NCBI GenBank assembly: GCA_001661515.1
Contig: LUVW01000045.1
Coordinates: 44,494 to 108,493, forward strand
DNA length: 64,000 nucleotides
Direction of reading: 5' to 3'
Origin: Capniomyces stellatus
Taxonomy: Eukaryota > Kickxellomycota > Harpellomycetes > Harpellales > Legeriomycetaceae
The position numbers and the translations under genes are program-made. Shown here piece by piece: positions 13,665 to 55,911 of this stretch; position 1 is the stretch's first letter, and each line of letters opens with the position of its first letter. The notes under the pieces were generated by a model, which was not told where the DNA came from, did no database searches, and saw only the letters and a list, made by a program, of their open reading frames with translations.

Positions 13665-14310
13665 CTTTGAATGCGAGTGTAATTGTAATGGTAATGGAAA
13701 AGAAATAGAGCTAGAGCTAGCTTCTAAAATCAAAATAGTTTAGATGTGTATTATTATCATGTGACTTTCAGGTTCTTTTATGATATATATGCAGTTTATT
13801 ATTCTTTTTGATACATTATATAGGTCAAGTAAGATTAGTAAAGTGGATTCGGATTTATAGAGTAGAAACAAGTTGTTGATATAAGCTCAGTTATACAGCA
13901 AGCAATAGTAGCAATGATATGTTTATGATAGGGCGTGAAAGAGATCCAAGTGCACCAAATGTCACAAAGTGCATCAAGCGTTCTGAATGTTCCAAAGTTT
14001 TCTAATATTTAATTAAAAATAGTGGAGGCTTTGGAGGAACGTCAAATTTACAGGCTGTTTGCTTGATGCATTATGTTAAGCCCCCGAGCTATTAAATAAC
14101 TCAAGTCTCTGGGCATGATGGTAAGAAAGGAAGATAAACGAAAAAAAAGACAGCTGTGACCAAAAATAAATAAAATGGAAAAACAGCTTTTTTTTTTTAC
14201 AGTAAAATAAAGCGGACGAACTTGGATACAATAAAAAAGTGGGTGGATTAATTAAAGTGGCGGGAATGAGATGATTTTTCCAAAAACCCAAGGACACGTA
14301 AAAGGAAAAA

Positions 14311-14311
14311 N

Positions 14312-14338
<27 letters not shown>
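14311..14338. repeat. Poly-A tract containing one undetermined base
   Basis: An N at 14311 sits inside a run of A of about 30. The true length of the tract is uncertain. Confidence 0.8.
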
Positions 14339-14344
<6 letters not shown>

Positions 14345-15453
14345 CAAAACAACCAAAACAAAAAAGGGGAGGTAAAAAAGAACAAAAAAAAAGAGGTAAT
14401 TTTACAAAAGTGGCAGAATAAAGCCTAAAACAGGTATGGATAAAGTAAAAGAGGTAAAGGTGTAATTGTATTTGGGGAAGGGGAGTGAGAGAGTAGAGTA
14501 GGGTAGAGTAGAATGAAATGGGCGTGGAATCGAGAAAGGATAATTTGTGTATGTTAGCTTGATTAATCACGGTTAAAACCAAAAGCGTCGAGTGAAAATA
14601 TCAAAAAATAGTCAAAAAAGTAAGGTCAAAAAAGTAAGAGGAAAGGAGTGGTAAAAATAGTAATTACATCAAATGGGTAGATCGGAATTTTGTAAGAAGG
14701 TGAGATAAATAATATAATGGTTATGGATGATGAGCGATGGGGGTGTATAAAGGAAATCACGTTAATGTACAGGGAAGAAGTCATTGTTGGTTTGTTAATT
14801 GGTTTGGTAAGCAGGAAAGATATCAAAGATAAAAGTAGAGCGGGGAATATTTAAGTTTGAAGTGTGCAAAGAAAAAGAGCATGAAGATAGCAATGACCCA
14901 TCTAGCATTAATAAGATTAAGGAAATGTAAAAGAAAGAAAAGAGGGACTAGTTGAATAAGGAAAATCATTAATTAGTATTAGTAATGTATATGAAGAGGA
15001 ATAAATAAAAAAAAAACAGAAAGCAAAATAGAATAAAAAAAACGAAACGAAAACAAATGAAATCAAAATAAAAAGGCGAAAAGAAAAGAAAAAAATCAAA
15101 AAAGAGTAGGAATTTCAATTAAAAAATAAAAGAAAAATAAGAGTAGGGAAAATAAAAAAAACGAGAAAATAATAAATAAAGGAAAACAAAAAAAAAAACA
15201 AGTAAAAAAAAAACGCCTTTTACTTTTAAACTTGGAGTAGTGAAGATAAAACGACACAAAGTATAAAGAGAAGAAGAAAAAAAAAGAAGATTCAATAGAG
15301 TTGTTTTTTTTTTAACTAGAGGGTAATCAAAGATTGACAAACGCACGATCTAAAGGGAGGAAGAGAAAAAAAAAATTGAAAAAAAAACAAATAAATAGAA
15401 AAGGAAGCGACGAAGCAATAATAAAAAAAAAAAAAGGATTACGCAATTTGATG

Positions 15454-16639
15454 ATGGAGGCAAGTAGAGAGAGAGCGAGAAGAAAATAAATAAAAGGAAT
15501 AAATAAAGAGATTGATGAAAATAATCAGTAATGTAAGAGTGTGGGAGAGGGTGGATACAAAAGAACAAGGAGTAAATACTAAAACGTGAATGGAATAAAT
15601 AATACATAATAGGGTATTCTTGATTTTAGCAAAGACTTGGATGTTGGATTGTTGGATACGGTAGTGAATACTTTTTTCACTGGGCGAGGAGAAGAGGTAA
15701 GAGTCAAAAAGTAGAATAGAGTAAAAGGAGAAAGTAGATTGGAGAGAGTAAAAGAGAGTAAAAGAGAGTAAAAGAGAGTAAAAGAGAGTAAAAGAGAGTA
15801 AAAGATTAATAATAAATGAACTGTAAATAGCAAAAGCTGGCACAACAAATTTTGACGACGTTTCAAGAAAACCCAGAGTCATGGACAAGAGTAGATGGGA
15901 TATTAGAAAAGTCAAACCTTGCACAAACCAAAGTAAATAAAAGAAGTATACAAGTATAAGTATAAATATAAATATAAATATAAATATAGTAAAATGTAAT
16001 AAAATGTAATTATAAAATGTAGTTTATTGGGCTTCAAATACTGGAAAAGTTGATTCAAACGAGATGGAAAATATTGCCAGTAGATCAGCAAAATGGTAAA
16101 TAAAGATATAAAGGATATAAAAGAAAATAAAGGGAAATAAAAGAAAATAAAAGGATGAATTGTGGCTTTGGGAAAATAGGGATAAAGAACTTTATAGTGG
16201 CAATAGTGATAAAGACGTCAAGTACGGAGGAAATGATTAAGGCAAACAAGATGTACTTGTCAAAGTTGAATTTGATATTGGTAGAGATTCTGAAGCAAGA
16301 GTGGCCACATAACTGGCCAACGTTTATACCGGAGATAGTAGCGAGTAGCAAGACGAGTATATCGTTGTGTTGGAACAATATGGAGATATTGAAGTTGCTT
16401 AGTGAGGAGATATTTGATTATTCGGGGGAGCAAATGACGACGAAGAAGGCGATGGATATGAAGAAGCAGATGAATGGGGAGTTTAGTGAGATATTCCAGT
16501 TGTGCAATGAAGTGTTGCAAACAGCGATGCAGGCGAATCTGATTAAGGCGACGTTGGAAACATTGTTGAAGTTTTTGAGTTGGATACCATTGGGGTATAT
16601 ATTTGAAACCGATTTGATTGAAAATTTATGTACAAGAGT

Positions 16640-16671
<32 letters not shown>

Positions 16672-19347
16672 TTGGTAGTAGTAGTAGTATTGGTAGTAGT
16701 AGTAGTAGTAGTATAAGTAATAATAAATAATATTAATTGATAAATGAATTAATTGATAAATGAATAAATAAAAAAAATAATAAATAATAAATAGTTTCTA
16801 GAGGCTAGAGAGACTAGAAATTCGGTGATAAAATGTCTAGGAGAGATATCAAGTTTGAGTATAGAGGAGAATTATAGTATGAAGATGGTAAAGATGTATT
16901 CGATGGCGATGGGGGGGATAAACAAGATACTGGGGGAGAACAATAAGGAAATAGGAAAGAAATGGGATGGATTGGCAGATGATGAGCAAGAATTTATTCA
17001 GAATGTGGTGCAGTTTTTAGCGACGTACTTGGGAAAACATCTGGAATTGTTGGAGAGACAGGGGAATTGGGGGGAGATAATAGCGGGGCATCGATACTTG
17101 GTGGAGATAATGAGGGTTGAGGACCGAGAAATGTTTAAAGTATGTTTGGAATACTGTAATGGATTTGTTAGAGGATTATATGAAGATAATAAGAAGGGGA
17201 ATGTGAATATGAATATGGGATCAACAGGAGTATTGATGGTTGGAATGGGAATGGGGATGGGGATGGGAGGAGTAGGAGTAGGAGTAGGAGGAAAGAGAAA
17301 CAATAGAGTGGAAATGTATAGAGAAATATTGACAGAAATGAGGCAGGTGATAATAGACAATATGGTGAAACCATCAGAAGTGTTGATAGTGGAGAATGAC
17401 GATGGAGAAATAGTAAGAGAATTTATCAAGGAAACAGATACAATTACGCTGTACAAGACAGAGCGAGAGAGTCTAGTGTTCCTAACGCACTTGGACACAG
17501 ACGATATGGAGCGGATTATGATGGACAAGTTGGGCAAACAGCTGGACAACAGCGAATGGAGCTGGAACAACCTGAACAAATTATGCTGGGCGTTTGGATC
17601 GATCAGTGGGTCGATGAACGAGGACCAGGAAAGGCGATTTCTGGTGGTGGTGATCAAGGGGCTACTGGGGCTTTGCGAGATGGTGCGCGGGAAGGACAAC
17701 AAGGCAGTGGTGGCGAGCAATATCATGTATGTGGTAGGACAGTACCCACGGTTCCTGAAGGCTCACTGGAAGTTCCTCAAGACCGTAGTCAACAAGCTGT
17801 TTGAGTTTATGCACGAGCTGCACCCAGGCGTACGCGACATGGCCTGTGACACGTTCATCAAGTTGGCCGACAAGTGCAAGAAACACTTTGTCATAGTCCA
17901 GCCCAACGAGTCTGAGCCCTTTATAGCCGAGATTCTACGCGCTACCAGCTCAATCATCAACGACCTTGAACCACAGCAGACTATCACCTTCTACAACGCC
18001 ATTGCGCGCATCATCTCCGCCGAGTCCGACCCTCACGCTCTTGCTAACCTCCTCACCAACACTATGGCTCTTCCAAACGCCACTTACGCGCGTATGCTTG
18101 CCCTCCTCTCCGAAAACCCAACCAATCTCGAAAAAACCGATATTAACAAATCCATTTCTCACTTTTTACGCGTCAACATCAACGTGTGCGAACCTATTGG
18201 GTCTAGCTTCCTGCCCCAGATCGCTAACATCTACCTCGACATGCTTGGTGTCTATGCCGCCCTCTCCGAACGCATCAACGCGTCTGTTTCTGCTAATGGT
18301 CCAATTGCTGCCCGTTATCCAAACATCCGTGCTATGCGTGCTGTCAAAAAAGATTTTCTTAACCTCATCGACTGCTTCATTGCCAACTCCAAGAACTCCG
18401 ACCTTACTCAGATTTCTGCCAACATTCTGCCTCCGCTATTTGACTCTGTTCTGCCTGACTTTTCTGCCTCTGCTCCCATTGTCCGTGACCATGAGGTAAT
18501 CAAGCTGATGTCTACTATTGTCTCTGTTACCGGGTTTCTTGCTGCTCAGCATGTACCCCTCATCATTGACCACGTCATCATTCCTACTCTTGACATGATT
18601 AATAAGGACTTTTCCGAGTTCCCCGAGTTCCGCATCGAGTTCTATAAACTGCTCACCAGTATCAATACTTGCTGCTTCAACGCTCTTCTTTCCCTCTCCC
18701 CCGCCAACTTCAAGCTCATCATTCACTCTATAGTCTGGGGCTTCAAACATACTCTTCGTGACATTTCCGAGTCCAGTCTCACTCTCCTCTCTGAACTCAT
18801 CAATAACTTTGCCTCCTCTGACCATCTCGTCGCCAACTCTTTCTTTGCCTCTTACTTTTCTGAGCTCACAACCGACATTTTCTATGTTCTAACTGACTCT
18901 GACCACAAGTCCGGCTTTCGTTCCCAGTGCAACATTCTCTCCAGACTCATCCAAATCTCCCAGTCTTCCCTCCTAACTTCCCCTCTTGATCCTAACCCAA
19001 TCAATCCTTCCCCTTCTAACCCTAAATTTGACAACGTCACTTATGTCTCCAACTTTATTTCCTCCCTCCTCAGAAACGCCTTTCCCAACCTCACTGCCTC
19101 CCAAATTCAGTCCTTCATCACCAACCTCTTCAACAATTCTAACCCTAACCAACTTGACAACTTCCGCATCATTGTTCGTGACTTTTTAATCCAACTTAAG
19201 GTCTTTAGCGGTGAGTCTGATGAACATTTAATTCTCTTCAGTGCTGATAATGAACTTGAACTTGATAATCTTAAAACTATCCAACGAAATCAAGCCCTGC
19301 TTATTCCTGGAATGATTAAACCCAGTGAAATGGATGAAGGCGATTAA
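15454..19347 (+). CDS. XPO1: Exportin-1 / CRM1 nuclear export receptor
   Basis: This karyopherin carries NES cargo out of the nucleus with RanGTP. Exons: 15454-15459, 15613-15696, 15831-15932, 16023-16095, 16180-16637 and 16795-19347, about 1091 residues (human CRM1 is 1071). The N-terminus GILDFSKDLD and the stretches LKQEWPHNWPTFIPEIVASS, GYIFET, ASNIMYVVGQYPRF and LKTVVNKLFEFMHE are near-identical to CRM1. The first exon is inferred to be just ATG GAG followed by a GC donor (GCAAGT), giving MEGILDFSKDLD, the usual fungal start. An ATG three bases earlier is also possible. Cys535 in GLLGLCEMVRGKDNK matches the leptomycin-reactive cysteine. A Met/Gly/Val low-complexity insert lies near residues 377-411. 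Codon choice changes from purine-rich to pyrimidine-rich halfway. The UBP3-like gene follows 280 bp downstream on the same strand. Confidence 0.93.
15743..15804. repeat. GAGTAAAAGA decamer tandem repeat in an XPO1 intron
   Basis: Six copies of a 10-bp purine-rich unit within the intron 15697-15830 of XPO1. Confidence 0.9.
16638..16794 (+). repeat. (AGT)n-containing XPO1 intron
   Basis: The intron between the fifth and sixth XPO1 exons starts GTAAGT and runs directly into about 20 AGT triplets interrupted by ATTGGT. It ends AATAG. Reading through would add poly-Ser, so the splice is strongly preferred because the next exon resumes CRM1 homology with FLEARET. Confidence 0.8.
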
Positions 19348-19433
19348 TCCCATTAATCCCCTCTCTATATTCCTCTTTTATTCTTACTTTCTATTTTTTT
19401 TTTCTTTTTAATTTTACTATTAGCTCTTTAATC

Positions 19434-19494
19434 TTTTTTTTTTTTTTTTTTTTTTTTTTTTNNNNNNTTTTTTTTTTTTTTTTTTTTTTTTTTT
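19434..19494. repeat. Poly-T tract with assembly gap
   Basis: Six Ns at 19462-19467 inside a T run of about 55 bases, just after the XPO1 stop. The real length is unknown. Confidence 0.9.
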
Positions 19495-19627
19495 ATTATC
19501 TTTTAATAAAAATTTACATAACCCTTATAAATCCTTTTATTTAATTATTTATTTCCCTTACTAGTATTTTCTTTTTATTATCTTTTTTTTTTATTATTCT
19601 TTGTTTTTCTTTTTATTATCTTTAAAA

Positions 19628-20553
19628 ATGTCTATTCAATCTAGTATCATTCCAAATAATATCTCTCAAAATCTCAATCCTAATCTCAATCCTATTCCTA
19701 ATCCTAATCCTAAACAGAATCAGTACCAGAATACTAAACAGAATCAGAAACTTAAACCTAAATCTAAATCTAAATCTAAATCTAAATCTAAACAAAAGTC
19801 TAAATCCAACTCTAGTTTGATTTCTACTTTACCTCCATCTCCAACTACAGGTCTGAATCCTGTTGCATTTTCTATCCCAGTTTTACCAATCGACTCTACT
19901 CTCAAGTTTGGTTCTTCTTCTTCTCACTTTGTTATTGAAAACCAATTTGTTGTTGATAACCTCAATACCATCAAAAGTCTCTTTTCCAAAGTAAGTTTTG
20001 TTTTTTGTTTTTTGTTTTGTTCCTTTTTCTTCTTTTCTTCTTTTGTTCTTTTAACGCTTCATTTATCTCACCGTTTTCTTATTTCTTATTTCTTATTCCA
20101 GTTTCCTGTCCATATCCCAGATAACACAGGTAGATTCACTAACCAACCTTATCCATTCAATTCAATTCAATTCCATTTTTCTTTCTTATCTTATTCTATA
20201 ATTGTACAGTTGATTGTTGATTTAGTTTAATTTTAATTTTCCTAAATTCTTCATTTAGACGAGTTTTGGAATCAAGTCACTATAGATTCAATCCAAAAAA
20301 AACAGTCTCTTCGAAAACTCAAACTATCTCAAAAACAAGCTCTAAAACATCCTCAATCTTCTTCAAATATCTCAGCCCAGCCCACCAACTACCAAAATAC
20401 AAATCTTACCTCTAATAACACTGACGATACGATGATCACCAATATTATAAATAACAATCCCACCAATCAACCCTCTCAAAGTCCTACTGAGAACCAAAAT
20501 GTTCCTACCAAACCAAAACCACCTCCTTCCAGCTGGGCAGCATTGCTAAAACC

Positions 20554-20597
<44 letters not shown>

Positions 20598-22535
20598 AAA
20601 CTAAAGCAGAAGCAGAAACAGAAACAGAAACAGAAACAGAAACAACGACTTCACCACCTTCATTCCCACAACCTCAAAAACTCCCCAAAAAATCTCTATT
20701 TGACTTGATCAAATCATACACTCCCCACAACTCTCCAAAAGTCTTTGTCCCAAAGGGCCTAGTCAACACCGGAAACATGTGCTTCATGAACGTTGTTCTC
20801 CAAGCCTTCCTCCACTGTCACTACCTAACCAACCTTTTAATCGACATCAGAGACACTGTTTCTCACAATTTCTCTTCAAACATCCCTATAATCGATTCTC
20901 TCATTCTCTACATCAACGAGTTTCACTACCTCACTTCTGAATTCGACAATTCGTTAACCGATGACCCCTTTGTTCCCGAATACGTTTATCTCGCTCTTCG
21001 CCAAAAAAAGATTTTCCAGACTTCTCGGGTAACTAACCCACTCTAATCATCTACCTTTTATATCTTTTACATCATTTACTTTTTCTATATACATATATAT
21101 ATTTTGCTTCGTTTAATTGCTTGCTTGGGTTTTATTAGGGCCAGCAAGAAGATGCTATCGAGTTTATGGACCATTTAATCAACGGAATGCACGACGAACT
21201 TCTTCATGGTAACAAAACAAAACAAAACAAAACAAAACAAAACAAAACAAAACAAAACAAATTTCATCTAACTCCTTTCACTTTACTTTAATTGGTTTGC
21301 TGATTTTTCTATTTTCTTCTATCCATACCCATCTGTACAAACTTACCAATCACTGCTCCGTTTCCCTTTATTAATCTTTACAACCAAAACTTGTCATTTT
21401 TTTTTTTTTTCAGTAATGCAAATCGGAAATGCCCCTGCAAATGGCTTGTCACAAAACTCCTCAAAACTCCAAACTTCCCCTTCGTTTGCTGGCTTTGCAT
21501 CTCCAAAGTCACCTAAAACCTCAGCCCATCAAAACGACCCCTTTTCAACTCAACCATCCCACCCCAACAGTGCCAATCTGAACTACCACAACTCATCAGA
21601 CATCCCATCTGACTGCGGTCTTTCCTACTCTGACCAGTACCTCGCTGCTAATTACGGCGACTTTGAAAACTCTGATAATGGAAACGACTGGCTGAAGGTT
21701 GGCAAAAACAGCAAACTCGTCATCAACCGCGACTACCAATTTGCCCAAACCCCTATTTCCATGATTTTTGGCGGGTATCTCCGGTCTGAACTCAAAATTC
21801 CTGGGTCCAAACCCTCATCCACCAGAGAACCCTTCCAGTGCTTGGCTCTTGACATTTCAGTAAGTGGACAAAACTAAATACACGATGAAATCAATTTATA
21901 TTGACAAATCAACACACTCATTGTTGAATTTAGTTACTTTTTTTTTTTCCAACTCTTATTTATACTAATCTTACCTTTTTAATCTTTTTTTTATTTTTTT
22001 TATTTTTTTTATTTTTTTAATTTTTATTTTTTTTGTCTTGTGTTGCCCCCACTTTGTTTTTCTCTAGCCTCCTGAGGTCGAACATTTAGAAGATGCAATT
22101 GACCACCTGACTTTCCCTGAAGTCATTGAAGGGTACACAAACTCAAATGGCCACAAAGTCAACGCCACAAAGCAGCTGTTTCTAGACGATCTACCGCCGG
22201 TCCTAGTCATCATTCTAAAGCGGGTTGTTTATTCAATCGAACTTGGCGCGTTCAAAATCAACAAGTTTGTTACTTATCCAAATACCCTTTTCCTAAAACC
22301 CAAATGGTTTAACCGCAAGAGTCACTCTTGTCCCAGCTACAATCTTTCTTCCGTTCTCTATCATCACGGCGACCATGCTGGTGGTGGCCATTATACCTGT
22401 GATGTTTTGAGGCAGCGGACAGATGATTGGTTGAGATTTGATGATACCGATATCACCACCGGTCTTATGCCTGACCAGGTTTTGTCTGAAAAGGATGATA
22501 GATGCGCCTACATTTTAATTTACACTAGATCTTGA
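19628..22535 (+). CDS. UBP3: Ubiquitin carboxyl-terminal hydrolase, Ubp3/USP10-like
   Basis: A USP-family cysteine deubiquitinase. Six exons in phase: 19628-19990, 20102-20129, 20259-21028, 21139-21208, 21414-21859 and 22068-22535, 714 residues. The Cys box is GLVNTGNMCFMNVVLQ (nucleophile Cys305). The QQEDAIEFMDHL box is intact. The His box is GGHYTCDV (about His667), and RFDD carries the likely Asp. The segment DWLKVGKNSK, then TPISMIFGG, then LPPVLVIILKR follows USP10 and Ubp3 in order. By family, Ubp3 with Bre5 acts on COPII and ribophagy substrates and USP10 on p53 and stress-granule proteins. The Bre5/G3BP partner is not in the window. The N-terminal 250 residues are low complexity (Asn-Pro repeats, Lys-Ser repeats, poly-Thr from an AAC microsatellite, Glu-Thr repeats). 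An AAAAC microsatellite sits in the intron after 21208. Confidence 0.9.
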
Positions 22536-22763: not shown

Positions 22764-25700
22764 TTAATCGTCTCCTTCATTATAGACGTTTTCAGGGTCT
22801 GGGTTGCACTTTGCGCATTTGTATATTGGTTTACAAGCCGGGCAGCCTTCAAGAGGAGGTGGTGGAGGAATCAGTTCATTGTCAGGTCCGTTTGGACAGC
22901 TTTCACAATGATGGTTTTCTGGACATTCAGGGCATGATGGGTAGACATTGCACTCTTTACACTTGAGTCCTGGCTCACAAATTGGACACCCCTCAACATG
23001 TGGTGGAGCTGGAATGATTTCGTGGTCAGGGCCAAACTCGCATTTGTCGCATACTTGCTTGATTGGACACTTGGGGCATTCTGTTGGTTTGGGCTTGCAC
23101 TTTCTGCATTTCAGTCCTGGCTTGCATACTGTGCACCCCTCAACATGTGGCGGAGCTGGAATGATTTCGTGGTCAGGACCGAATGGACAGACTTTGCACA
23201 CCTCCTTGATTGGACATTTTGCACAGCCAGGTTTGGTGTTGCACTTTTTGCATTTCAGTCCTGGCTCACAAACTGGGCATCCTAGTACATGCGGTGGAGC
23301 TGGAATGATTTCGTGGTCAGGTCCAAATTCACACTTGTCGCACACTTGCTTGATTGGGCATTTAGGACATTTGGTCGGGTCTACATTGCATTTTCTGCAC
23401 TTGAGTCCTGGCTTGCATACTGTGCACCCCTCGACATGTGGCGGGGCTGGAATGATTTCGTGGTCAGGACCGAATGGACAGACTTTGCACACCTCCTTGA
23501 TTGGACATTTTGCACAGCCAGGTTTGGTGTTGCACTTTTTGCATTTCAGTCCTGGCTCACAAACTGGGCATCCTAGTACATGCGGTGGAGCTGGAATGAT
23601 TTCGTGGTCAGGTCCAAATTCACACTTGTCGCACACTTGCTTGATTGGGCATTTAGGACATTTGGTCGGGTCTACATTGCATTTTCTGCACTTGAGTCCT
23701 GGCTTGCATACTGTGCACCCCTCGACATGTGGCGGGGCTGGAATGATTTCGTGGTCAGGACCGAATGGACAGACTTTGCACACCTCCTTGATTGGACATT
23801 TNGGTGGAGCTGGAATGATTTCGTGGTCAGGGCCAAACTCGCACTTGTCGCATACTTGCTTGATTGGACACTTGGGGCATTCTGTTGGTTTGGGCTTGCA
23901 CTTTCTGCATTTCAGTCCTGGCTTGCATACTGTGCACCCCTCAACATGTGGCGGAGCTGGAATGATTTCGTGGTCAGGACCGAATGGACAGACTTTGCAC
24001 ACCTCCTTGATTGGACATTTTGCACAGCCAGGTTTGGTGTTGCACTTTTTGCATTTCAGTCCTGGCTCACAAACTGGGCATCCTAGTACATGCGGTGGAG
24101 CTGGAATGATTTCGTGGTCAGGTCCAAATTCACACTTGTCGCACACTTGCTTGATTGGGCATTTAGGACATTTGGTCGGGTCTACATTGCATTTTCTGCA
24201 CTTGAGTCCTGGCTTGCATACTGTGCACCCCTCGACATGTGGCGGGGCTGGAATGATTTCGTGGTCAGGACCGAATGGACAGACTTTGCACACCTCCTTG
24301 ATTGGACATTTTGCACAGCCAGGTTTGGTGTTGCACTTTTTGCATTTCAGTCCTGGCTCACAAACTGGGCATCCTAGTACATGCGGTGGAGCTGGAATGA
24401 TTTCGTGGTCAGGTCCAAACTCGCATTTGTCGCATACTTGCTTGATTGGACACTTGGGGCATTCTGTTGGTTTGGGCTTGCACTTTTTGCATTTCAGCCC
24501 TGGCCCGCAAACTGGACACCCTTGTACATGTGGTGGAGGAACAATCACAAGATGTTCAGGGCCATACGGACACTTCTCACATACCTCCTTGATTGGACAT
24601 TTAGGGCATTTGGTTGGGTCTATATTGCATACCATGCATTTCAACCCTGGTTTACATACCGGGCACCCTTCAACATGTGCTGGTGGAGCAATAACCAGAT
24701 GGTCAGGTCCAAACTCGCATTTGTCGCACACTTGCTTGATTGGACATTTAGGACATTCTGTCGGTTTGGGCTTGCACTTTCTACATTTAAGCCCTGGTTC
24801 GCAAACTGGACATCCTTGTACATGTGGTGCTGGATCGATTATTTCATGTTCAGGGCCATACGGGCATTTATCACATACCTCCTTGACTGGACATTTAGGA
24901 CATTTTGGTTTGGGGTTACACTTTTTGCATATATATGTTGGTTTACATACAGGGCATCCCGGCAATTGGTTTAATGGTGGAACTAGTTCGTGCTCAGGGC
25001 CATACTTACACTTTCTGCATTTGTTTACTATTGGGCATTTTACACAAGTTGCTGGATCTGGGTTGCACTTTAGACATTTATAGCTGGGCTTGCAGGATGG
25101 GCATCCTGGCAGTTGTGGTGGTGGAGGGATTAGCTCGTGTTCTGGACCAAACGGACACTTTTCGCATTTGTTGGGTACTGGGCAGATAATACAGTTTCCT
25201 GGCTTTGAATTGCATTTTTTACATTTATAGCTTGGTTCACATGCTGGGCATCCCGGCAGTTGATTTGGTGGAGGGATAAGCTCGTGGTCTGGACCATACT
25301 TGCATTTTTTGCACTTGTTTGGTACTGGGCACTTTAGACACTCTGAAGGAGGAACATTGCATTTTCTGCACTTGTATGTTGGTTCACATGCTGGACATCC
25401 TGGAAGTTGTGTTGGTGGTAGGATGAGCTCATGTTCTGGTCCGTATGGACATACTTTACACTTTCTTACTTTAGGACACTTGTTGCATTTTGCAGGATCA
25501 CAATTACATTTTTTACATTTATAACTTGGTTCACATGCTGGGCATCCTGGCAGTTGTTTTGGTGGAGGAATAAGCTCATGTTCTGGACCAAACGGACACT
25601 TTTCACACTTGTTTGGAATAGGGCAAACATTGCACTTACTTGGATCGCAATTACATGTTTTGCATATATACGTTGGTTTGCATGTTTTGCACCCAGGCGG

Positions 25701-27485
25701 TGGCTTAGGAGGCAGCACCATTATGTGTTCGGGGCCAAATGCACATTTCTTGCACTTTTCTACTTTAGGGCAAACAGGGCATTCTGAAGGGGGTACGTTA
25801 CAAGTCAAGCATTCGTAACTTGGTTCGCACTCTGGACAACCTGGTTTTAAAGGGGGACCTGGAATTAGCTTGTGTTTTGGTCCATAAGGACATTTCTTGC
25901 ACTTCTTTGGCGTTGGACAAGCGTCGCAGTTTCCTGGTTTTGTATTGCACTTTAAGCACTTGTAGTTTGGCTTGCACTTGGGACAGCCTGGCAGTCGAGG
26001 TGGAGGAGGAATTAATTCATGTGCTGGGCCATACTTGCACTTAGTGCAAGTATTTGGAACCGGACAGACGTTACATTTTTTAGGATCAACGTTGCATTTT
26101 TTGCACTTGTAGCTTGGTTCACATGCTGGACATCCCGGCAGTTGTTTTGGTGGAGGGATAAGCTCGTGTTCTGGACCAAACGGACACTTTTCGCACTTGT
26201 TTGGAATAGGGCAAACATTACACTTACTTGGATTGACATTGCACTTTTTGCACTTGTAGGTTGGCTCACATGCTGGACATCCTGGTAGCTGCTTTGGTGG
26301 TGGGATAAGCTCATGTTCTGGACCAAATGGACACTTTTTGCACTTGTTTGGAGTGGGACATTTTAGACAATTTTCAGGATTGACGTTGCATTTTTTACAT
26401 TTATAGCTTGGCTCGCATGCTGGACACCCTGGTAACTGTTTTGGTGGTAGGATAAGCTCGTGTTCTGGTCCATACTTGCATTTTTTGCATGTGTTTGGGG
26501 TAGGGCAAACATTGCACTTACTTGGATTGCAATTACATGCTTTGCACTTGTAGCTAGGTTTACATGGTGCACACCCTGGGAACGGTTTTGGGGGAATAAT
26601 CAGTTCATGCTCCGGTCCAAACTCACACTTGGTACATGTGTTTGGCGTTGGGCACTTTTGGCAGGTTCCTGGGTTTGGATTGCATGGCTTACATCTGTAG
26701 GATGGCTTGCATCTAGGACACCCAGGCAGTGGTTTTGGTGCTGGGATTAACTCATGTTCTGGGCCATACGGACACTCTTTGCATTTTTTAGGCTCTTCGC
26801 ATTTAGGACACTTTGATGGATCAGTGTTGCACTTTTTACATTTGAATGTTGGCAAGCAGTCGATGCACCCGTCTTTATGTGGAGGAGGAATAATCAGCTC
26901 ATGCTCCGGTCCAAACTCACATTTTTTACACCCAACTGGTACAGGGCATTTAGGACATACAACATTTCCAGACCCAGGGTTACAACCTTCATGTTCTTTA
27001 CAATTGAAGCACCTAGGACACGGCAAGCATTGCGGGTTTATATAATTTGTTTTAGCAACCAACTTCATTTGGATTTGATCACTGCTGACTTTGACGCGCT
27101 CTGCTTTATACGTATTCATTACTTCAGCGGCTTTTTGGATTGAAGGAAAAAGCTTCCCCGCCTCAATTTCTTTTCCTCCAGATGGTATATAGTATGATAC
27201 TTGTACATTCAGTGCCCACAGCCTGTTGTTTATATCTTTGACATCTTTTGATTTACTGACAGTCTTCAAATTGTTGCCGACACTTCCAGGAATTAACCTG
27301 TTCCACTCTTCAGTGACCGAATATGGAATGTTGATGAAGTTTGTTATATTTCTTGGTACCACCTCAATCTCATGCTTTACTCCTTCAAAGGTCTGCTTGC
27401 AAACAAGTTTTTTATTTACCTTTTTGCAACTCAAGGCATGACAGGAAATCGCTAAACTAACCAGAAGTGTTACTGGTAGCCTCAT
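22764..27485 (-). CDS. Secreted cysteine-rich repeat protein, about 29 repeats
   Basis: A single-exon gene of about 1573 codons, with one N at 23802. A signal peptide is clear (MRLPVTLLVSLAISCHA). Residues 18 to about 150 are a non-repeat domain. Then about 29 repeats of 47-49 residues follow, each with consensus CPxCPxxxxCxKCxxGPEHE, then IIPPP, then GCPxCxP and KCxKC. Each repeat holds eight cysteines. GP[ED]HE is nearly invariant and precedes a proline patch. Repeats 1-14 carry a QLPGCPACEPSYKCKKC-type second half and repeats 15-28 an HVxGCPVCxPGLKCKKC type. The protein ends with an acidic tail, NEGDD, with no evident GPI signal. I do not recognise the family. Regular disulfide-rich repeats plus secretion suggest a wall, spore-coat or adhesion fibre, but that is inference. 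It lies tail-to-tail with the UBP3-like gene, 228 bp apart. Confidence 0.85.
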   Translation of the reverse strand: MRLPVTLLVSLAISCHALSCKKVNKKLVCKQTFEGVKHEIEVVPRNITNFINIPYSVTEEWNRLIPGSVGNNLKTVSKSKDVKDINNRLWALNVQVSYYIPSGGKEIEAGKLFPSIQKAAEVMNTYKAERVKVSSDQIQMKLVAKTNYINPQCLPCPRCFNCKEHEGCNPGSGNVVCPKCPVPVGCKKCEFGPEHELIIPPPHKDGCIDCLPTFKCKKCNTDPSKCPKCEEPKKCKECPYGPEHELIPAPKPLPGCPRCKPSYRCKPCNPNPGTCQKCPTPNTCTKCEFGPEHELIIPPKPFPGCAPCKPSYKCKACNCNPSKCNVCPTPNTCKKCKYGPEHELILPPKQLPGCPACEPSYKCKKCNVNPENCLKCPTPNKCKKCPFGPEHELIPPPKQLPGCPACEPTYKCKKCNVNPSKCNVCPIPNKCEKCPFGPEHELIPPPKQLPGCPACEPSYKCKKCNVDPKKCNVCPVPNTCTKCKYGPAHELIPPPPRLPGCPKCKPNYKCLKCNTKPGNCDACPTPKKCKKCPYGPKHKLIPGPPLKPGCPECEPSYECLTCNVPPSECPVCPKVEKCKKCAFGPEHIMVLPPKPPPGCKTCKPTYICKTCNCDPSKCNVCPIPNKCEKCPFGPEHELIPPPKQLPGCPACEPSYKCKKCNCDPAKCNKCPKVRKCKVCPYGPEHELILPPTQLPGCPACEPTYKCRKCNVPPSECLKCPVPNKCKKCKYGPDHELIPPPNQLPGCPACEPSYKCKKCNSKPGNCIICPVPNKCEKCPFGPEHELIPPPPQLPGCPSCKPSYKCLKCNPDPATCVKCPIVNKCRKCKYGPEHELVPPLNQLPGCPVCKPTYICKKCNPKPKCPKCPVKEVCDKCPYGPEHEIIDPAPHVQGCPVCEPGLKCRKCKPKPTECPKCPIKQVCDKCEFGPDHLVIAPPAHVEGCPVCKPGLKCMVCNIDPTKCPKCPIKEVCEKCPYGPEHLVIVPPPHVQGCPVCGPGLKCKKCKPKPTECPKCPIKQVCDKCEFGPDHEIIPAPPHVLGCPVCEPGLKCKKCNTKPGCAKCPIKEVCKVCPFGPDHEIIPAPPHVEGCTVCKPGLKCRKCNVDPTKCPKCPIKQVCDKCEFGPDHEIIPAPPHVLGCPVCEPGLKCKKCNTKPGCAKCPIKEVCKVCPFGPDHEIIPAPPHVEGCTVCKPGLKCRKCKPKPTECPKCPIKQVCDKCEFGPDHEIIPAPXKCPIKEVCKVCPFGPDHEIIPAPPHVEGCTVCKPGLKCRKCNVDPTKCPKCPIKQVCDKCEFGPDHEIIPAPPHVLGCPVCEPGLKCKKCNTKPGCAKCPIKEVCKVCPFGPDHEIIPAPPHVEGCTVCKPGLKCRKCNVDPTKCPKCPIKQVCDKCEFGPDHEIIPAPPHVLGCPVCEPGLKCKKCNTKPGCAKCPIKEVCKVCPFGPDHEIIPAPPHVEGCTVCKPGLKCRKCKPKPTECPKCPIKQVCDKCEFGPDHEIIPAPPHVEGCPICEPGLKCKECNVYPSCPECPENHHCESCPNGPDNELIPPPPPLEGCPACKPIYKCAKCNPDPENVYNEGDD
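22940..24500. repeat. Near-identical 291-bp tandem repeats within the Cys-rich gene
   Basis: The same 291-bp block, equal to two protein repeats, recurs with starts near 22998, 23289, 23580, 24090 and 24381. Most copies are identical or nearly so over long stretches. The N at 23802 breaks the array, so copy number is uncertain. Repeats in the 5' part of the gene are much more diverged. Confidence 0.9.
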
Positions 27486-37245: not shown

Positions 37246-40200
37246 CTAGTATGAATTAGAATTGGAAACGATGGTTGTGATTAGATCATACGACAAACCA
37301 TGATGTTGAATAGAAGCAGGAATAGCGGGTGCAGGTGCAGGTACAGGTGCAGAGTCAAGAGACTGGGCACTAGAAGAGTGCAAGAACAGAGACAGGTGGG
37401 AGTTTTTGATGGGAATTGAAAGGTCGGGAAAGTCAAGAATGAGAGAGTAGTTGACAAGCAGGCCAAACAAAGAGTGCAGCCCAGAAAAGAAAACAGCATC
37501 CTTGATGGATCTGAAGGGCTGGCTCCAAAACAGGTGGCTGGAGCTGGGCGTGATGCTCAGGTCAAGCAGAATCGGATAGAGAAACTGCTTGTAGTGCAGC
37601 AGAAGCGACATGGCAGGCGAGGCAGACAAGAAAATAATGGATCTGGGCAAAGCCACATTCTGGTCGCTAAACGCATACTGGAAGATTGCAGCCAACAAGC
37701 AGTCAGTCGCTCTATTGAGACAGTACGAGGTTGCCAAAGCAGAGCCCGAGCGCACAGACTCAAAAGGCAGATCTCTGACATTTAGCACCAACCCAACATC
37801 AGCTGGCAGTCGCGCAAGCAGGACAGCTAGTGGAATACCAGACATGCACAGCAAACGCCGGTTCTTGACAGCATCTTCAGACGACTCAACAATCTGGTTT
37901 AGACACCGCAGGTCAAATTTATTTGACGCAGAGCCGTAAAGAACCAGATTGATTTGCTCGCAGGTCAGCATGTGTACAGGCACGTGTATTTGTGCAATTT
38001 CTTGTACACATATGGCGTGGCTGTTGTACACAATTGGTACATTGTCGGAGGTGAGCTGTACAAAAACGTCACAGTACTTTTCCGGGTACTCGACTGGAGA
38101 AGCTAGCAGGAGCAGCTCGTCAACAGTCTTGCCGGTGCCAGAGCTAATCCGGGAAAACTCAAATGGATTGATTATCAAGAAGTCAAACCTCAGTTCGGCT
38201 ATCAGGACCTGGTTCCGGTTAACCAAAGGAACCGTAACGTTTTCGCAGCTCTCGTTGCCGAAAAATGACGACGAGATAAACGTCTGGCCAATAACCTCAG
38301 ACCCAAAGCTGGCAAACAACTTGATCTCCAGACACACGTTTGATTGGTTGGAAAGATCAAATGAGCAGTACGCATCACGCGTTTGGATGGGTAGCTGCAG
38401 AGTCTGGGGCAGCACGCCAATGTCGGGAAACGAGCCTATCTGGACTCTGAGAGAAGTCAGCTTGGTATGGTTTATGAACGTGATTGGCTGCAAATACCCC
38501 GACGCGTCGCTCTTGAACCTCATCACCACGCGTTTCTGCTGCGTCAGCTGCGAGTGGTCGCCAAGGTAGAACGGGATGATTGGGGGAGGCAGTTCGAGGT
38601 CAGGAATCAGGTCCAAGTCGTCGTCAGTGATTATACTGTCGCCAATGTCTGGATCGGCGCTGGTTTTGGCGCTGATTTTGGCGTCAGACGCGACTTTGTT
38701 TGTTTTTAACCGCTCCGATATCTGCAAAAAGCCCTCGTATGCCGCATAGAACCCAGCTGTCCGCCCGTCCTCATCAACCATCAACGTGTCACACCCAAAC
38801 TCCAGCAACAGGTCCACACAGTCTCCGTATCCCCCCTTTGCCGCATAGAAAATAGCCGTCCACCCCAAATCGCGATCACGCGCCTCGATCATCACGTCCT
38901 GACCAATCAGCCACCGTGCCATTTCCACGTGACCGTGCTGCACCGCAACGTGCAACGCTGTTCGTCCCAGGTTAGGATCCAACGCAGTCTTGACATCCAG
39001 GCCCAGATTAGACTCGTGCAGGATCTTGGCCACCTGCCATTCACCCCTCTCGCTCGCCTTGAACAGCGCAGCTTCAAGACCCAGCTTCAACGACGCGCTC
39101 CTCAAATCTCCGCGTCGTATATGCCTTATCAGCTCCATGATACTCGCAGTCTGCCCGCACGACGCTGCCAGCTGCAGGCCCTGAGTTCCAAACTCATCCA
39201 CTGCCTGCTGCGCCCCAGCCTCCACAAGCATCCGCACTATCCCGCTATACCCCCCTACAATCGCATAAAACAGTGCTTTTTTTCCATACGCGTCGCCTGC
39301 CTCCAAATCCGAGTGGCCGCTTATGCTCAGCTCCACCAGCCTGCTAAGCCCGCTTTTGGCAGCTTCGTGCAAAATAGTTCTGTCACTGATCTCTGCCTTC
39401 CACGCCGTGTCAATTCCCAGCCCCTGCCCAACAAGCGTTTCTACCACCAACTCCTCGATTTTCCTCCTTTTATTTTCCTCATTTTCGCCCCCATTCTCCT
39501 TCCCAGAAATACTGCATATCCCCCACTGAATCGCCTGGCTAATTCCCGCCAAATCCTTTCTGCTCACCGCCTCCAAAAACATCTTTTCCCACCCCTTCTC
39601 CCCTGCCTCTCCCCCCGCCTCCTGCTCGCTTTCCCGCTCCAGTTTCTCCTTCTTGATTATCCCCAGCACTACATTGTCGCTCAGCTTCGTTATCGCCTTT
39701 CTGCTAAACCACGCTTGGAACTCCGACTGCCTCGCTATATACAGCTCTTTGTTTCTGCTTCTCGCCCTCTTGTCCCACTTTTTCACTATCTTTGACACCC
39801 CCGCCCCGTTTAGCTCTGCAAAACTCTCCAAATTGTCCACGTCCTGCTTCAGCCGCTCCCATCCCTCCCCCAACTCTTTCAACACCACTACTCCTACCCC
39901 TTCGCCCCTCTTTTGCCTCTCTATCTCTACCTCCTGAATTCGCTCCAACTGCTCAAATCTCCTTTGCTTCTTTTCCTCCTTCAGTGTATAAAACTTGCTT
40001 ACCTATTGCAGACATTCTCATTAATTCTTTTCTTCTATTTTCTCTTTTATTTTCTCTTCCATTCATATAAATCTTATCTCTACTTTATACTCTTCAACTT
40101 TTTAAACCTTTTCTTACTTTTTCCAGCTCTAAATCCAACCGCTTGAAGAACTCTATTTTTCCCTCCTTCTTTTCCCTCTCCGACTTCTCTACTGCATATT

Positions 40201-51066: not shown

Positions 51067-52465
51067 GAAAAACATATGTAAAAACATAAACACAAACATA
51101 AACATACAAAAAGAAACTTGAAAACAAATAGCAATTCAATAAAGATATGACAGGTTTGGAGACAATAAATTAAAATAAAATGCCTGGCAACTTAGTATTT
51201 ATGTGCGTTGTTTGAGTGTTTACAAATAAAGCAGTGCTTTGAAAAACACAACAAAGCTGGTTAGCGCGCTTATAATACAGCGTATTTAGTTATATGAGGC
51301 TCTAGATTGATTTTTTGCTAGCAGTGAGTAAGGCAATGTCGATTTTCAAGCGTTCAGGATAATAAAAAGGCAAATAAAAGACGGGTTGAATAGTAAACTA
51401 ATTTAGGAAAGTTAGAGTGGGCAAAGTGATTAAAGGTAAATGGGAGTATCTAGTCGAATATAAAAACAAAAGGTTTGGAACGGAGCAGGAGCTATTTTTA
51501 AACGAAACTGAACGCCGAAAGACCTGAGATGTATGCTGTGTAAATCAAAATTACCAATACGGGGATAGTTTAATCGGTTGAAAGCAAGTAAAAAGAGCAA
51601 ACAATTATATAATGGAAGGTCTTCAAGTTATAAATAAAAAAGATTAAATTGGGTGGATTTATGAACAAAAAGCGTAAAACACAAACAGTAACGAGAATTG
51701 AAATGGGGCCAATGGTTGGAATCAACAAATAGAAAAGGGAAAACATAATGTTATTGGCTAAAGCAATAGAGAAAGTTTGAAAACGAAGAGATTAGTGGAG
51801 GCAAAAGCCGTGGTTTATTCAATTAAGAGCAAAAAAAATAAAATGAAAAGTGAAAAGCGAAACTGCCAGAATAAGGAAAATAAGTGATACTAAATAGTAA
51901 AAGGAAAATAGACTTGATCTCAAAACACTGGAGAATTACAAATTTAAAAAAGAAACCGAAGATTTAAAGCTTTTAAAAACTATTGAATAGAGCAAATTGG
52001 GTTGAATCAAGTTGGGCTGAATCAAGAAAAGGTCAAAAAATTGAGATCGAATTGAGTGGCAGAGCAAACAATTAAACAAAGAGCTAAAGATTAAAAAAGA
52101 TTAAAAAAGGCTAAAAAATATTAAAAAGTCAAAAAACAAAAAAACATTGTTTAAAATAGGAAAAGAGAAAAGCTGCAGCAATAGAAAAGTTAAAGTGAAA
52201 GTAGAGGCAGAAAATGTTGAATTTTTATTAAAGATAGATAATATAGAGCCTTTAATTGATTGAGCTAAAAAGAAAGAAAAAAGAAAGACAAGCAGCAATC
52301 AGGGTAACAAAGCTAGGAATTGGATCTGGATTGAGTAAGCGGACAGAGGGAAAACGTAGTAATTTAGAAATAGAGGGAAAGCTTGCTTGACTAGAATATA
52401 GTAAAGGTGGAAATAGAGAATATAAAATAGAATTAGGAATAAACGGAATAGAAGAAACAAAAGAA
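51067..52465. other. Purine-rich intergenic DNA
   Basis: No gene seen. From about 51330 onward the plus strand is strongly A/G-rich and merges into the purine-rich 5' half of the ArfGAP gene. Confidence 0.5.
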
Positions 52466-55400
52466 ATGATAAAGGCAGAGGAAGTAAGAGGTAAAAAGAG
52501 TATGGGGGAGGGAGAGAGGCAGTTGAGTGACTTGGTTGAGGGAAAAAAATACAAGCGTCACCAGCCAAGCTATAAGGGGTTGGTGGCAGAGTTTGAGAAA
52601 TATGTAGCAGGGGTTGAGGAACGGGGGCCAAAGCTTGAAAAGGTAGGGGGGCAGCTTATGGGGGCGATTGAGGAGTATGACAGGAGTAGCGAGCGGATGA
52701 ACAAGAGTATTGAGGAAATATTGAGTATGGGGCCAGTTAGGGACAGCCAGTCGGAGCAGCTGTTTAGGCACTACTTTCAGAGCGTTGAGGAGCTAGGAAA
52801 GATCCGGAGGGTGAAGGATCTGGAGAAGATTAAGGCGGTGAAGACAGAGATAAGCGAGGTGCTGTCAAGGAAAGTGGGGGAGGCAAAGAGAGGCAAAAGA
52901 GCAACGGAGGGGCAGCAATACGAGTATGAAACGCAACTATCAAGGATGCTGAGCAAGCGAATAAACGACGGCAGTATTGAAAAGATGGCAGAGGGGGTAG
53001 TTGGGTTGAGGGAAGAGTATGAGGGGGGAATGGAGCAATATACGCGAGTTTTAGGGGAGATATCAGGAGTAGATAAGGTGGAGGCGATGGAGAAGGTAAG
53101 CATAACGACACGAATAGAATGTATAGAGCAAAGAAAAAAAGAAAAATAAAAGGATGAATAAAAAAAGATGGATGATAAATAATGGGGTAGGTGCTTGGAT
53201 TGGTTATATCGGATTATGCGTACTATCATCAGGCATTTGCAATAATGAAAGATTTAGAGCCAACAATAGAGCAGCTGTCAACAAGACTGAGGGAAATGAA
53301 AAAAGACTACAAAGAGATAGTAGAAAAGGAAACAGAGAAAGAGGTGGTGGGAAGGAGAGTAGAGGGGGAAATAGAGAGAGAAATAGAAAGAGAAGGAGGA
53401 TACCTGTATTTACAGACACAAAACATGCTTAGTAGTTCGTGGCAGAGACGGTGGTTCCGGGTGAGAAAGGGGAACCTGGAGCACTTTACAAAGTGGGACG
53501 AGAGTGATATTGAGCAAATAGCGCTGCATGTTAGCAATGTGAGAAAATATAAAGAACGCGAGGATTCAAGTGGAGGGGCAGAAAATGGAATCGATAGAAG
53601 GCACATAATAGAAATAGTGTCACCACAAAAGACGTATATTCTGCAGGCAGAGTCGCGGGAGACAAAAGAGGCGTGGCGGGAAATCCTGAGGAGGCAGATA
53701 GAGGACTCGGTTTATTCAAAGTCAAATTTCAACAATGAAAATGAAGAAGAGGAAAATTATGAGAATGATGATTTTAGCAATGATGATGGTAGCAATGATG
53801 GTAATAAGGGGGATAGTAAGGATGAGAATGGGGATCAGGGTGAGGGCAGCGACAAAAGAACGTTTGGAGGAGCAATGGAAGCAATAGGAGCAATAGGATC
53901 ATCAATTAATGCATCGTCGATTCTGAGCTCATTGATGGGGTCAGACGATGGCACAAGTAAAGACAATAGTAAAGACAAAAATAAAAACAGTGGGAATGGG
54001 AATGGAAATGGAAATGGAAATGAAAGCCGTAATTTAGGGCTTTTTGGGCTGTCTCGGTCAAGAAAAAACAGCAGAATTTCTCAGGAAAACAGTATTGTTA
54101 ACAAAGAAAAAGAAGGAATGGCAATGGCCAGGTCCAGATCAGCACTAGGTCCAGTGTTTGACGTTATGGGAAACGACCGGTGTGCAGACTGTGGGAGCAG
54201 CAAGGCCACGTGGGCTGTTGTAAACTTTGGGATTCTGGTGTGCATCGACTGCTGCGGCGTCCACAGAAGCCTTGGCGTTCATGTCAGCAAGGTCAAGTCT
54301 ACTATTCTGGACAAATGGGATTCCGAATCCATCCACATTATGCAACGACTCGGCAACTCTGCTGCAAACGCACTCCTCGAATCCCCAGACTCCTTCAAGC
54401 CAGACCCCGACTCGCCCCGCGACCTGATCCAGGTATACATTTCCAACAAGTATCTGCTTAGAAAGTACCTACCCAGACACTCCCCCAACTCCCCACCTCA
54501 ATCCCCGCAGTCCCCCCGCAACAAAAACAACAATAATAGTAATAGTAATAACAGTAATAACAACTATGACCTCTTGCTTGCTTCTGCAACTCTTCACTCC
54601 AACGTTCCCGCTGCTCTACATGCTCTACTCAACAATGCTAACCCCAACGCCAACGCCAACGCCAACTCGTCGGATTCTTCTACCTCTCCCCTCATCAACG
54701 CTGCCTACGTTGGCGACTACGCTCTTGTCAAACTCCTCCTTCTTTGGGGCGCTGACATCAACCTCCGAATTCCCCCCTCTTCTCATTCAGAATCTCCGCC
54801 CAATTCTCCCCTCAAGTCCTTTTCTTTTGCCGACCCTCCTACCACTAATCACCTCCCTACCTCTATTGTCTGCATGGGTGGTTCTGCCTTGCACGCTGCT
54901 GCCTGTGTCGACAACCCATCTATGATCTGCCTTCTCATCCGCCTCGGGGCCGACTCCTCCATTCCCAACTCTTACGGCTACCTACCACTCGATATTGCTC
55001 TTGGCTACTCAAATGTCATGTCTGTGATGGCTCTGAGGTACGCCGGAATCATGACTTCTTCCAACTCTTCTTCCTCTTCCCCTAATCTCAATTCCACTTC
55101 TACTCCTACTTTTACTTCTACTCTTACTCCTATTCCTACTCCCTCCTCCACTTTTGATTCTATCTCCTTAATCCACCCCAATGATCCTTTCACCAACGAA
55201 TGGGCCATTCCTACTTTCTACTCTCCTTCTCCTTCTCCTCCTCCTCCCCTACCCACCAACTTTTCTTCAACTTCTAAACTACTTGTCTCGACCTCCCCAG
55301 CTGACTCTTCATACTCTTTGTCCCCAATCAAATCCCAAATCGACCAATCAATCGAATCCCCAATCGAATCCCCAATCAAATCAACAATCGAATCCCCAAT

Positions 55401-55911
55401 CGAATCCCAAATCGAATCCCAAATCGACCAACCAAACTCAATTTTACCAAACAGTGATCATATCTCTTCCCAAACTCAACTAGACGAATATCTCGACCAA
55501 GTTGATGATCAAGTACTTTCTTCAGAATCCCCTGTCAAGTTCTCTCCCACCCCACCACAACTTCAAATTCCCATCACTTCTACATTCACCACCAAGCAAA
55601 CTATAGATTCCATCCACTCCCCATCAGCCAATATCAGCCCTTCAACTCATTCAGTAGTCCCTCCAACTAACGAACCATTCAAAAACGACACTGAAAACGA
55701 CGATAACATACTACCACCATCACCACAGGCTACTGAAATTATACCTGATTCTAATGTTGGCCAACTTGATGACACTGAATTAACAAACGCAATCAACTCT
55801 AAACCAGAACATGATCTAAATGGCCATGACTCAACCAAGCCATCTAAAAAAACCAAAAAGGTCCTTAAAAATAAACAAATCAAATCCAATAATCTACCAA
55901 TTGACTCTTAG
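52466..55911 (+). CDS. BAR-PH-ArfGAP-ankyrin protein (ACAP/centaurin-beta type)
   Basis: A GTPase-activating protein for Arf, acting at endosomal or plasma membranes. Two exons in phase (52466-53095 and 53191-55911), about 1116 residues. Residues about 30-265 are helical and charged, as a BAR domain ([37 protein letters not shown]). A PH domain follows at about 280-380 ([37 protein letters not shown]). The ArfGAP zinc finger is CADCG, then [12 protein letters not shown] at residues 541-565. It includes the catalytic Arg in [13 protein letters not shown]. Ankyrin repeats come next ([40 protein letters not shown]), then a 250-residue Ser/Pro/Thr tail with repeated IESP motifs. An upstream exon is possible because the first Met is not conserved. 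Codon composition switches from purine- to pyrimidine-rich at the ArfGAP domain. Confidence 0.9.

Follow-up and report, generated by a model that had tools for sequence, protein, structure and literature searches.

Purine-to-pyrimidine composition flips inside XPO1 and other long genes of Capniomyces stellatus

In a 64,000-nucleotide stretch of the Capniomyces stellatus genome (bases 44494-108493 of contig LUVW01000045.1, here C40; the whole stretch is called the window), the plus strand changes from purine-rich to pyrimidine-rich within one exon of the XPO1/CRM1 gene. The flip is real and very strong, extends beyond XPO1 alone, and is linked to genes in the sample read. We favor, tentatively and with a little less than even confidence, the explanation that the points of change (pivots) are fixed initiation sites, probably recombination breaks with resection, at which strand-specific repair would have saturated silent sites.

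Results

The large XPO1/CRM1 exon (16795..19347, plus strand, 850 codons) encodes CRM1 domains and aligns to residues 243-1083 of CRM1 in PDB 4fgv, with further 5' exons upstream of 16795. Composition was profiled across the window as GC skew, AT skew, and GC content in 500-base windows. A purine-rich, C-poor left arm (14080..17760) with a GC skew of +0.37 to +0.67 (14.0-17.5 kb) gives way to a pyrimidine-rich, G-poor right arm (17761..22100) with a GC skew of -0.29 to -0.59 (17.75-22.0 kb). An earlier note on this DNA, made from the letters alone, had described purine-rich sequence from about 14080 to 17850 followed by pyrimidine-rich sequence, and the contrast proved stronger than described. 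AT skew was positive along the entire left arm; on the right it was for the most part negative, the exceptions being a value of +0.04 at the pivot (17.75-18.25 kb) and an excess of A over T at 20.25-21.0 kb. Both arms extend past the exon. Positions 14080-15430, taken as upstream noncoding DNA (which is unproven), contain A at 0.51, C at 0.08, G at 0.22, and T at 0.20, and the right arm takes in an exon of a ubiquitin hydrolase gene (20246..21046, plus strand; a UCH match, named UBP3 in the earlier note). Between the XPO1 and ubiquitin hydrolase genes, at 19350-19600, the share of G falls to 0.008. The window holds ten N bases in all, at 14311, 19462-19467, 23802, 57193, and 62933, and those at 14311 and 19462-19467 sit within long A and T runs.

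The pivot lies at 17,738 by cumulative GC skew, at 17,883 by cumulative purine content, and at 17,761-17,763 by the change point at 4-fold sites; we place it at 17658..17865, bounds drawn from the fitted 10-90% width of the flip at 4-fold sites, which is about 207 nt. The switch proposed earlier at 17,850-17,950 therefore stands, with its position moved at most slightly to the left. The rise in GC noted around the switch is also present, at 0.44-0.52 over 17.25-19.25 kb, where most windows of 14-17 kb have about 0.25-0.37. The peak that total GC shows at the pivot was rejected as a feature of the system, being gone at 4-fold sites.

Silent sites carry the clearest signal. The signal was measured as a change point in the purine share at 4-fold sites. 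In the XPO1 exon, purines occupied 102/110 such sites before the change point and 35/249 after it, for a log-likelihood gain of 108.9 against a maximum of 9.8 in 200 permutations. Where Furculomyces has the identical residue, the shares were 55/60 and 23/137. The earlier assertion that protein constraint is not the cause was right. The synonymous choices reported earlier hold at these same residues: Leu was written TTG (11) and CTG (8) before the pivot and CTC (18) and CTT (13) after it, Gly was GGG (5) and GGA (4) before, and Ser was TCC (8) and TCT (7) after. Because the step persists at conserved codons only, repeats and low-complexity insertions are not its source, and the third-position step survives the masking that the earlier note had proposed as a check.

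With 2.5-kb flanks, the GC-skew step at CRM1 was 0.95, close to the C40 maximum of 0.97-0.98. A step of at least 0.95 arose in 0/200 shuffles of C40 at each block size (3, 100, 500, and 1000 bases), the highest value in 1000-base block shuffles being 0.94.

The search for further pivots covered the whole of C40 (224,887 bases, including 31,916 N) and a 40-kb sample from each of contigs C1 and C10, for 272,954 readable bases of a 24.5-Mb genome in 59 contigs. Steps above 0.6, which we call strong, numbered 7 down and 2 up, whereas at a threshold of 0.35 there were 15 down and 13 up; several up-steps mark where the same domains end, which makes the down/up asymmetry one of size. Six of the seven strong pivots, all on C40, lie inside open reading frames (ORFs) of 850 codons or more, in the genes for NOT1, XPO1, a PHO81-like protein, an ArfGAP, VPS15, and a DHX29-like helicase; Pfam matches, not ORF length, are the evidence that these genes are real. 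The seventh (C1 position 3808 by GC skew, 4157 by purines) falls at the 3' end of a 387-codon Cid1-like ORF facing a convergent DBR1 ORF. The probability of finding six of seven in such long ORFs (P = 1.9e-5) is merely indicative, because skewed DNA has few stop codons, which inflates ORF length. The 40 kb of C10 contained no GC-skew step of 0.35 or more, despite which one C10 ORF (17393-19060) had a significant change point. The earlier note had suggested asking whether pivots fall randomly relative to genes; they look nonrandom over these roughly 273 kb and two targeted genes, a sample rather than the genome as a whole.

The targeted genes, PRP8 and RPB1, were selected for their length before any of their DNA had been read, and both flip, with 4-fold purine shares going from 459/541 to 261/690 in PRP8 and from 259/293 to 150/660 in RPB1. 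Change points were then evaluated in 45 ORFs (44 of 250 codons or more, plus PRP8), with significance at a p of about 0.01 or less. Nineteen were significant, and all 19 ran from purine to pyrimidine in sense, a count of 19:0 that is helped by gradual up-steps and by some ORFs sharing one domain. Eight of nine ORFs of at least 850 codons changed significantly in this direction. ORF length and size of drop were not significantly correlated over 98 ORFs of at least 150 codons (Spearman 0.17, p 0.10).

Within the window, the pattern was said to recur in two other long genes, and it does so in a PHO81-like and an ArfGAP gene. An SPX-ankyrin PHO81/GDE1-like ORF (37246..40002, minus strand) has a change point at about 38,692, with in-sense 4-fold purine counts of 140/176 and then 104/237, and a PH-ArfGAP-ankyrin ORF (53191..55911, plus strand) has one at about 54,258 (99/122, then 71/300). 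A BAR-domain ORF (52391..53149, plus strand) adjoins the latter upstream, in the left arm of this third pivot. In Smittium simulii, the locus numbers of the PHO81-like and ArfGAP genes follow one another (BB561_001824 and BB561_001825), an instance of partial synteny. The exception among the long ORFs is a 1573-aa Cys-rich tandem-repeat gene (22764..27485, minus strand), an internal counterexample without a significant change point; its product has a likely signal peptide (judged by eye), and the gene has 147/294-base repeats and one N at 23802. Two retroelement ORFs with reverse transcriptase domains at C40:127295-133707 (L008/L009), one with an aspartyl protease and the other with RNase H, likewise showed no significant flip.

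Intron loss was considered as a cause and is unsupported. The match to PRP8 and three matches to RNA polymerase large subunits occupy open frames of 2976, 1872, 1208, and 1688 codons, so that long genes here seem usually to have long exons; of these four, PRP8 and RPB1 were the ones read for base composition. PRP8 contains an intein (a Hom_end_hint match at residues ~508-922, approximately L027:1524-2768) and, by eye, a second mini-intein (residues ~1822-1952, approximately L027:5466-5858). In the first intein, the silent-site purine share (0.64-0.81 over most of it) and GC both dip relative to the flanking PRP8 sequence, as for a younger insert.

Summed over the six C40 pivots, left/right GC skew was +0.28/-0.27 in the first kilobase, +0.48/-0.46 in the second, and +0.53/-0.31 in the third, declining to +0.08/-0.15 at 5-6 kb, and flat skew zones are present inside C40. 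The arms overrun the ORFs that hold the pivots, by about 1.5 kb before and 2 kb after that of NOT1 and through the next gene after CRM1 (transcript ends are unmapped). Flip widths were fitted in eight genes and were narrow in five, at 207 nt in CRM1 and 419-640 nt in NOT1, the DHX29-like helicase, VPS15, and ArfGAP. Where the six ORFs examined extend to 1.5-4 kb left of their pivots, C makes up 0-3% of 4-fold sites and A plus G 84-92%. ORFs far from strong pivots have A 0.37, C 0.20, G 0.19, and T 0.25 at such sites, and RPB1 has C at 0/217 of them in the first 1.5 kb read. On the left arm, then, A and G are high while C and T are low together, C is depleted far more than T, and G rises most, which means that transversions must be involved. 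The two halves of pivot genes have roughly complementary composition. Silent-site GC is raised in pivot genes, at 0.40-0.58 in 14/16 bins around pivots and 0.46-0.81 in PRP8 versus 0.38 in ORFs far from pivots. Tandem-repeat cover was 0.075-0.129 within 10 kb of pivots versus 0.047 beyond, with no trend near the pivot, and was not used.

The process also reaches the proteins. Among the best 120 of 4049 hits to the CRM1 protein, the nearest named species were Harpellales (Furculomyces at 57% identity and Smittium at 54-56%), and the top-scoring hit was a eukprot entry, 45% identical, in which part of the sequence is repeated. Relative to a fungal consensus, replacements in the C. stellatus XPO1 raise purine content by 31.3 units on the left (135 changes) and lower it by 21.0 on the right (228 changes), the split being made at residue 385, the earlier note's pivot, and not at 323. 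XPO1 from Furculomyces and four Smittium showed no left/right purine split against the same consensus; the Kickxellales rows show purine gains of +23 to +36 on the right, an indication that other lineages drift too, in the opposite direction. The left-right difference in purine load was +0.318 for the PHO81-like protein and +0.277 for ArfGAP, versus -0.16 to +0.13 in 20 compared rows. Since the shift occurs here and not in Smittium or Furculomyces, the process is, within the set of species compared, specific to this lineage, and its strength suffices to alter amino acids.

Discussion

The pattern is strand-symmetric and points, as the earlier note proposed, to a process acting outward from the pivot. 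That note named bidirectional replication and a recombination hotspot as candidates; the size of the step, its short reach, and the C10 sample without a step speak against replication, leaving a hotspot as the best candidate. We infer the breaks, their meiotic nature, and the chemical step that exchanges a pyrimidine for a purine, and we regard a recombination break site as the most likely initiator, with a little less than even confidence. Each pivot would be a narrow, long-lived initiation site, usually intragenic, from which a strand-specific process may spread about 4-5 kb in each direction. Pyrimidines, C above all, would be lost from the strand that has its 3' end toward the pivot, which is the plus strand on the left and the minus strand on the right; equivalently, its partner would lose purines. 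The likeliest source would be double-strand breaks that recur at the same positions, probably made by SPO11 in meiosis, and their 5' resection would expose exactly these 3'-ended strands; damage, error-prone refilling, or biased mismatch correction could then alter bases by strand. With widths of 207-640 nt in five of the eight genes fitted, the flips argue for a positioned initiator, and the near-complete polarity of the arms (4-fold C at 0-3%; none in RPB1) is as expected if a single strand is exposed outside the initiation zone.

The loss of C from the 3'-ended strand on either side matches the polarity of meiotic hotspots. C>N changes flank human hotspots on the forward strand, the strand exposed to the left (PMC7615360). 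Human hotspots share with our pivots the involvement of opposite strands on the two sides of a centre and the loss of C from the 3'-ended strand, but there the asymmetry is seen in new mutations, most of them within 2 kb, at PRDM9 sites (PMC7615360), whereas here base composition is near saturation over 4-5 kb. Profile searches of the genome, made in six frames without introns, where absences are not proof, returned one SPO11-type TP6A_N match, RAD51-family matches, MutS_V matches at six places, and a HORMA protein that is possibly other than Hop1. The SPO11 breaks placed at the pivots are putative.

Several observations weigh against this explanation. Yeast hotspots lie mostly at promoters, whereas the pivots here are within exons. 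Human hotspots show A>N along with C>N on the same forward strand (PMC7615360), and so deplete A on the 3'-ended strand; here A is not depleted, the left arm having more A than T and thus no loss of A from the exposed strand. The six-frame search found no uracil-DNA glycosylase superfamily match (PF03167), an absence that is unproven, and a single weak Y-family polymerase match, so a deamination-UNG-REV1 chemistry is not supported. Three of the eight fitted genes lack a sharp flip (PRP8 at 1049 nt with two flips, the PHO81-like gene at 5947 nt, and an HSF-response-regulator gene with a degenerate fit), and the RPB1 change is spread over about 1.2 kb by eye. On the right side, a GC-skew residue of -0.07 to -0.15 persists to 10 kb from the six C40 pivots. 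Silent-site GC does not peak at the pivot (0.48-0.49 within 500 nt, 0.27-0.58 elsewhere), and no 8-mer was common to 5 or more of ten pivot windows. Finally, the pivot falls at the most conserved stretch in CRM1 (percentile 1.00) and ArfGAP (0.99) and misses it in the PHO81-like gene (0.24), and with two of three tested genes in agreement, a pivot at the conservation maximum is not claimed.

A bolder form of the break explanation, which we consider doubtful, is that the pivots form a fossil map of recombination initiation, in which break sites in long conserved genes drove silent sites to saturation and bent proteins through an undescribed, strand-directed bias of repair or conversion that favors purines. 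On this account, the break site would escape erosion because the encoded protein is under purifying selection.

Transcription is an unlikely alternative, though the strongest of the rivals. In the 5' half, sense R-loops would leave the nontemplate strand exposed; in the 3' half, antisense transcription would do likewise, the two meeting inside the gene, and R-loop damage would produce the skew directly. The location of strong pivots in long conserved genes fits, as does the lack of a flip in the Cys-rich gene and the two retroelement ORFs. So too does the common direction of all 19 significant changes, although a strand-symmetric pivot reads from purine to pyrimidine on either strand. However, a flip of about 207 nt requires two opposed transcripts to stop at a single point, transcription-coupled skew of the coding strand should have one sign per gene where here the sign flips inside genes on either strand, and the continuation of the arms beyond the ORFs and into the next gene argues against transcription alone.

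Slightly less probable again is a conjecture in which breaks initiate the process and the change comes by fixation, heteroduplex mismatch correction favoring purines on the invading strand. Such purine-biased gene conversion would supply the transversions that purine gain needs, the left arm being enriched in both purines and poor in both pyrimidines, and MutS-family genes are present. Against it, C is depleted much more than T, outcrossing is needed, and we know of no purine-favoring conversion bias. GC-biased gene conversion shares with our pivot genes a raised silent-site GC, but the peak expected at its centre is absent around the pivots, and it has no strand preference and therefore cannot make a purine/pyrimidine flip.

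Replication seems improbable, whether pivots are points of fork convergence in origin-free long genes (with a purine-rich leading strand) or origins (with a pyrimidine-rich one). Both versions yield a strand-symmetric step, and in Saccharomyces cerevisiae skew also changes sign at a point, jumping at origins and some termination zones (PMC3459929). There, however, the jump is 9% with a reach of about 20 kb (PMC3459929), whereas the steps here are up to 0.98, about ten times as large, and mostly fade within 5-6 kb, the right-hand residue aside, rather than being sustained toward the next origin or terminus. An origin would moreover need a leading strand rich in C and T, while the S. cerevisiae leading strand is rich in A and C (PMC3459929). 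The excess of down-steps over up-steps above 0.6 and the stepless 40 kb of C10 also tell against forks, as do the short reach and skew-free gaps, and the flip is too narrow for stochastic fork meeting. Our use of the reach of about 4-5 kb, the flat zones, and the tenfold step follows the reasoning of Marsolier-Kergoat for Candida albicans centromeres, where GC skew jumps by 74%, regains its average about 3 kb away, and is argued not to be related to replication (PMC3459929). Those inversions resemble ours in being large local jumps that return to average within a few kilobases, but they mark centromeres, for which one site per chromosome outside genes would be expected, whereas one 225-kb contig here has six strong pivots, all six inside ORFs. 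Least probable by far is selection on mRNA folding or codon choice, with the purine half pairing with the pyrimidine half: the halves are roughly complementary in composition, but the skew also occupies DNA outside ORFs, and the amino acids of conserved proteins are shifted.

Among the papers listed in searches of the open-access literature, outside which most subscription papers lie, no title or opening of an abstract dealt with intragenic purine-to-pyrimidine flips, and the single paper listed for Kickxellomycotina with GC skew concerned rotifer-trapping fungi. A gerbil "GC skew" was set aside as a parallel, the term meaning GC bias (PMC7403616).

With asymmetry this strong at many sites, the initiators of a strand-specific process could be located from sequence alone. 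The findings also carry a warning for codon-usage, phylogenetic, and selection analyses, as conserved genes may have opposite composition in their two halves. If the pivots are meiotic breaks, this fungus would keep a record, at the level of single bases, of stable exonic hotspots, and would allow the hotspot-erosion paradox to be tested and the reshaping of proteins by break repair to be followed. The silent-site scar in the long housekeeping genes of C. stellatus may thus record repeated DNA breakage and repair from fixed intragenic points.

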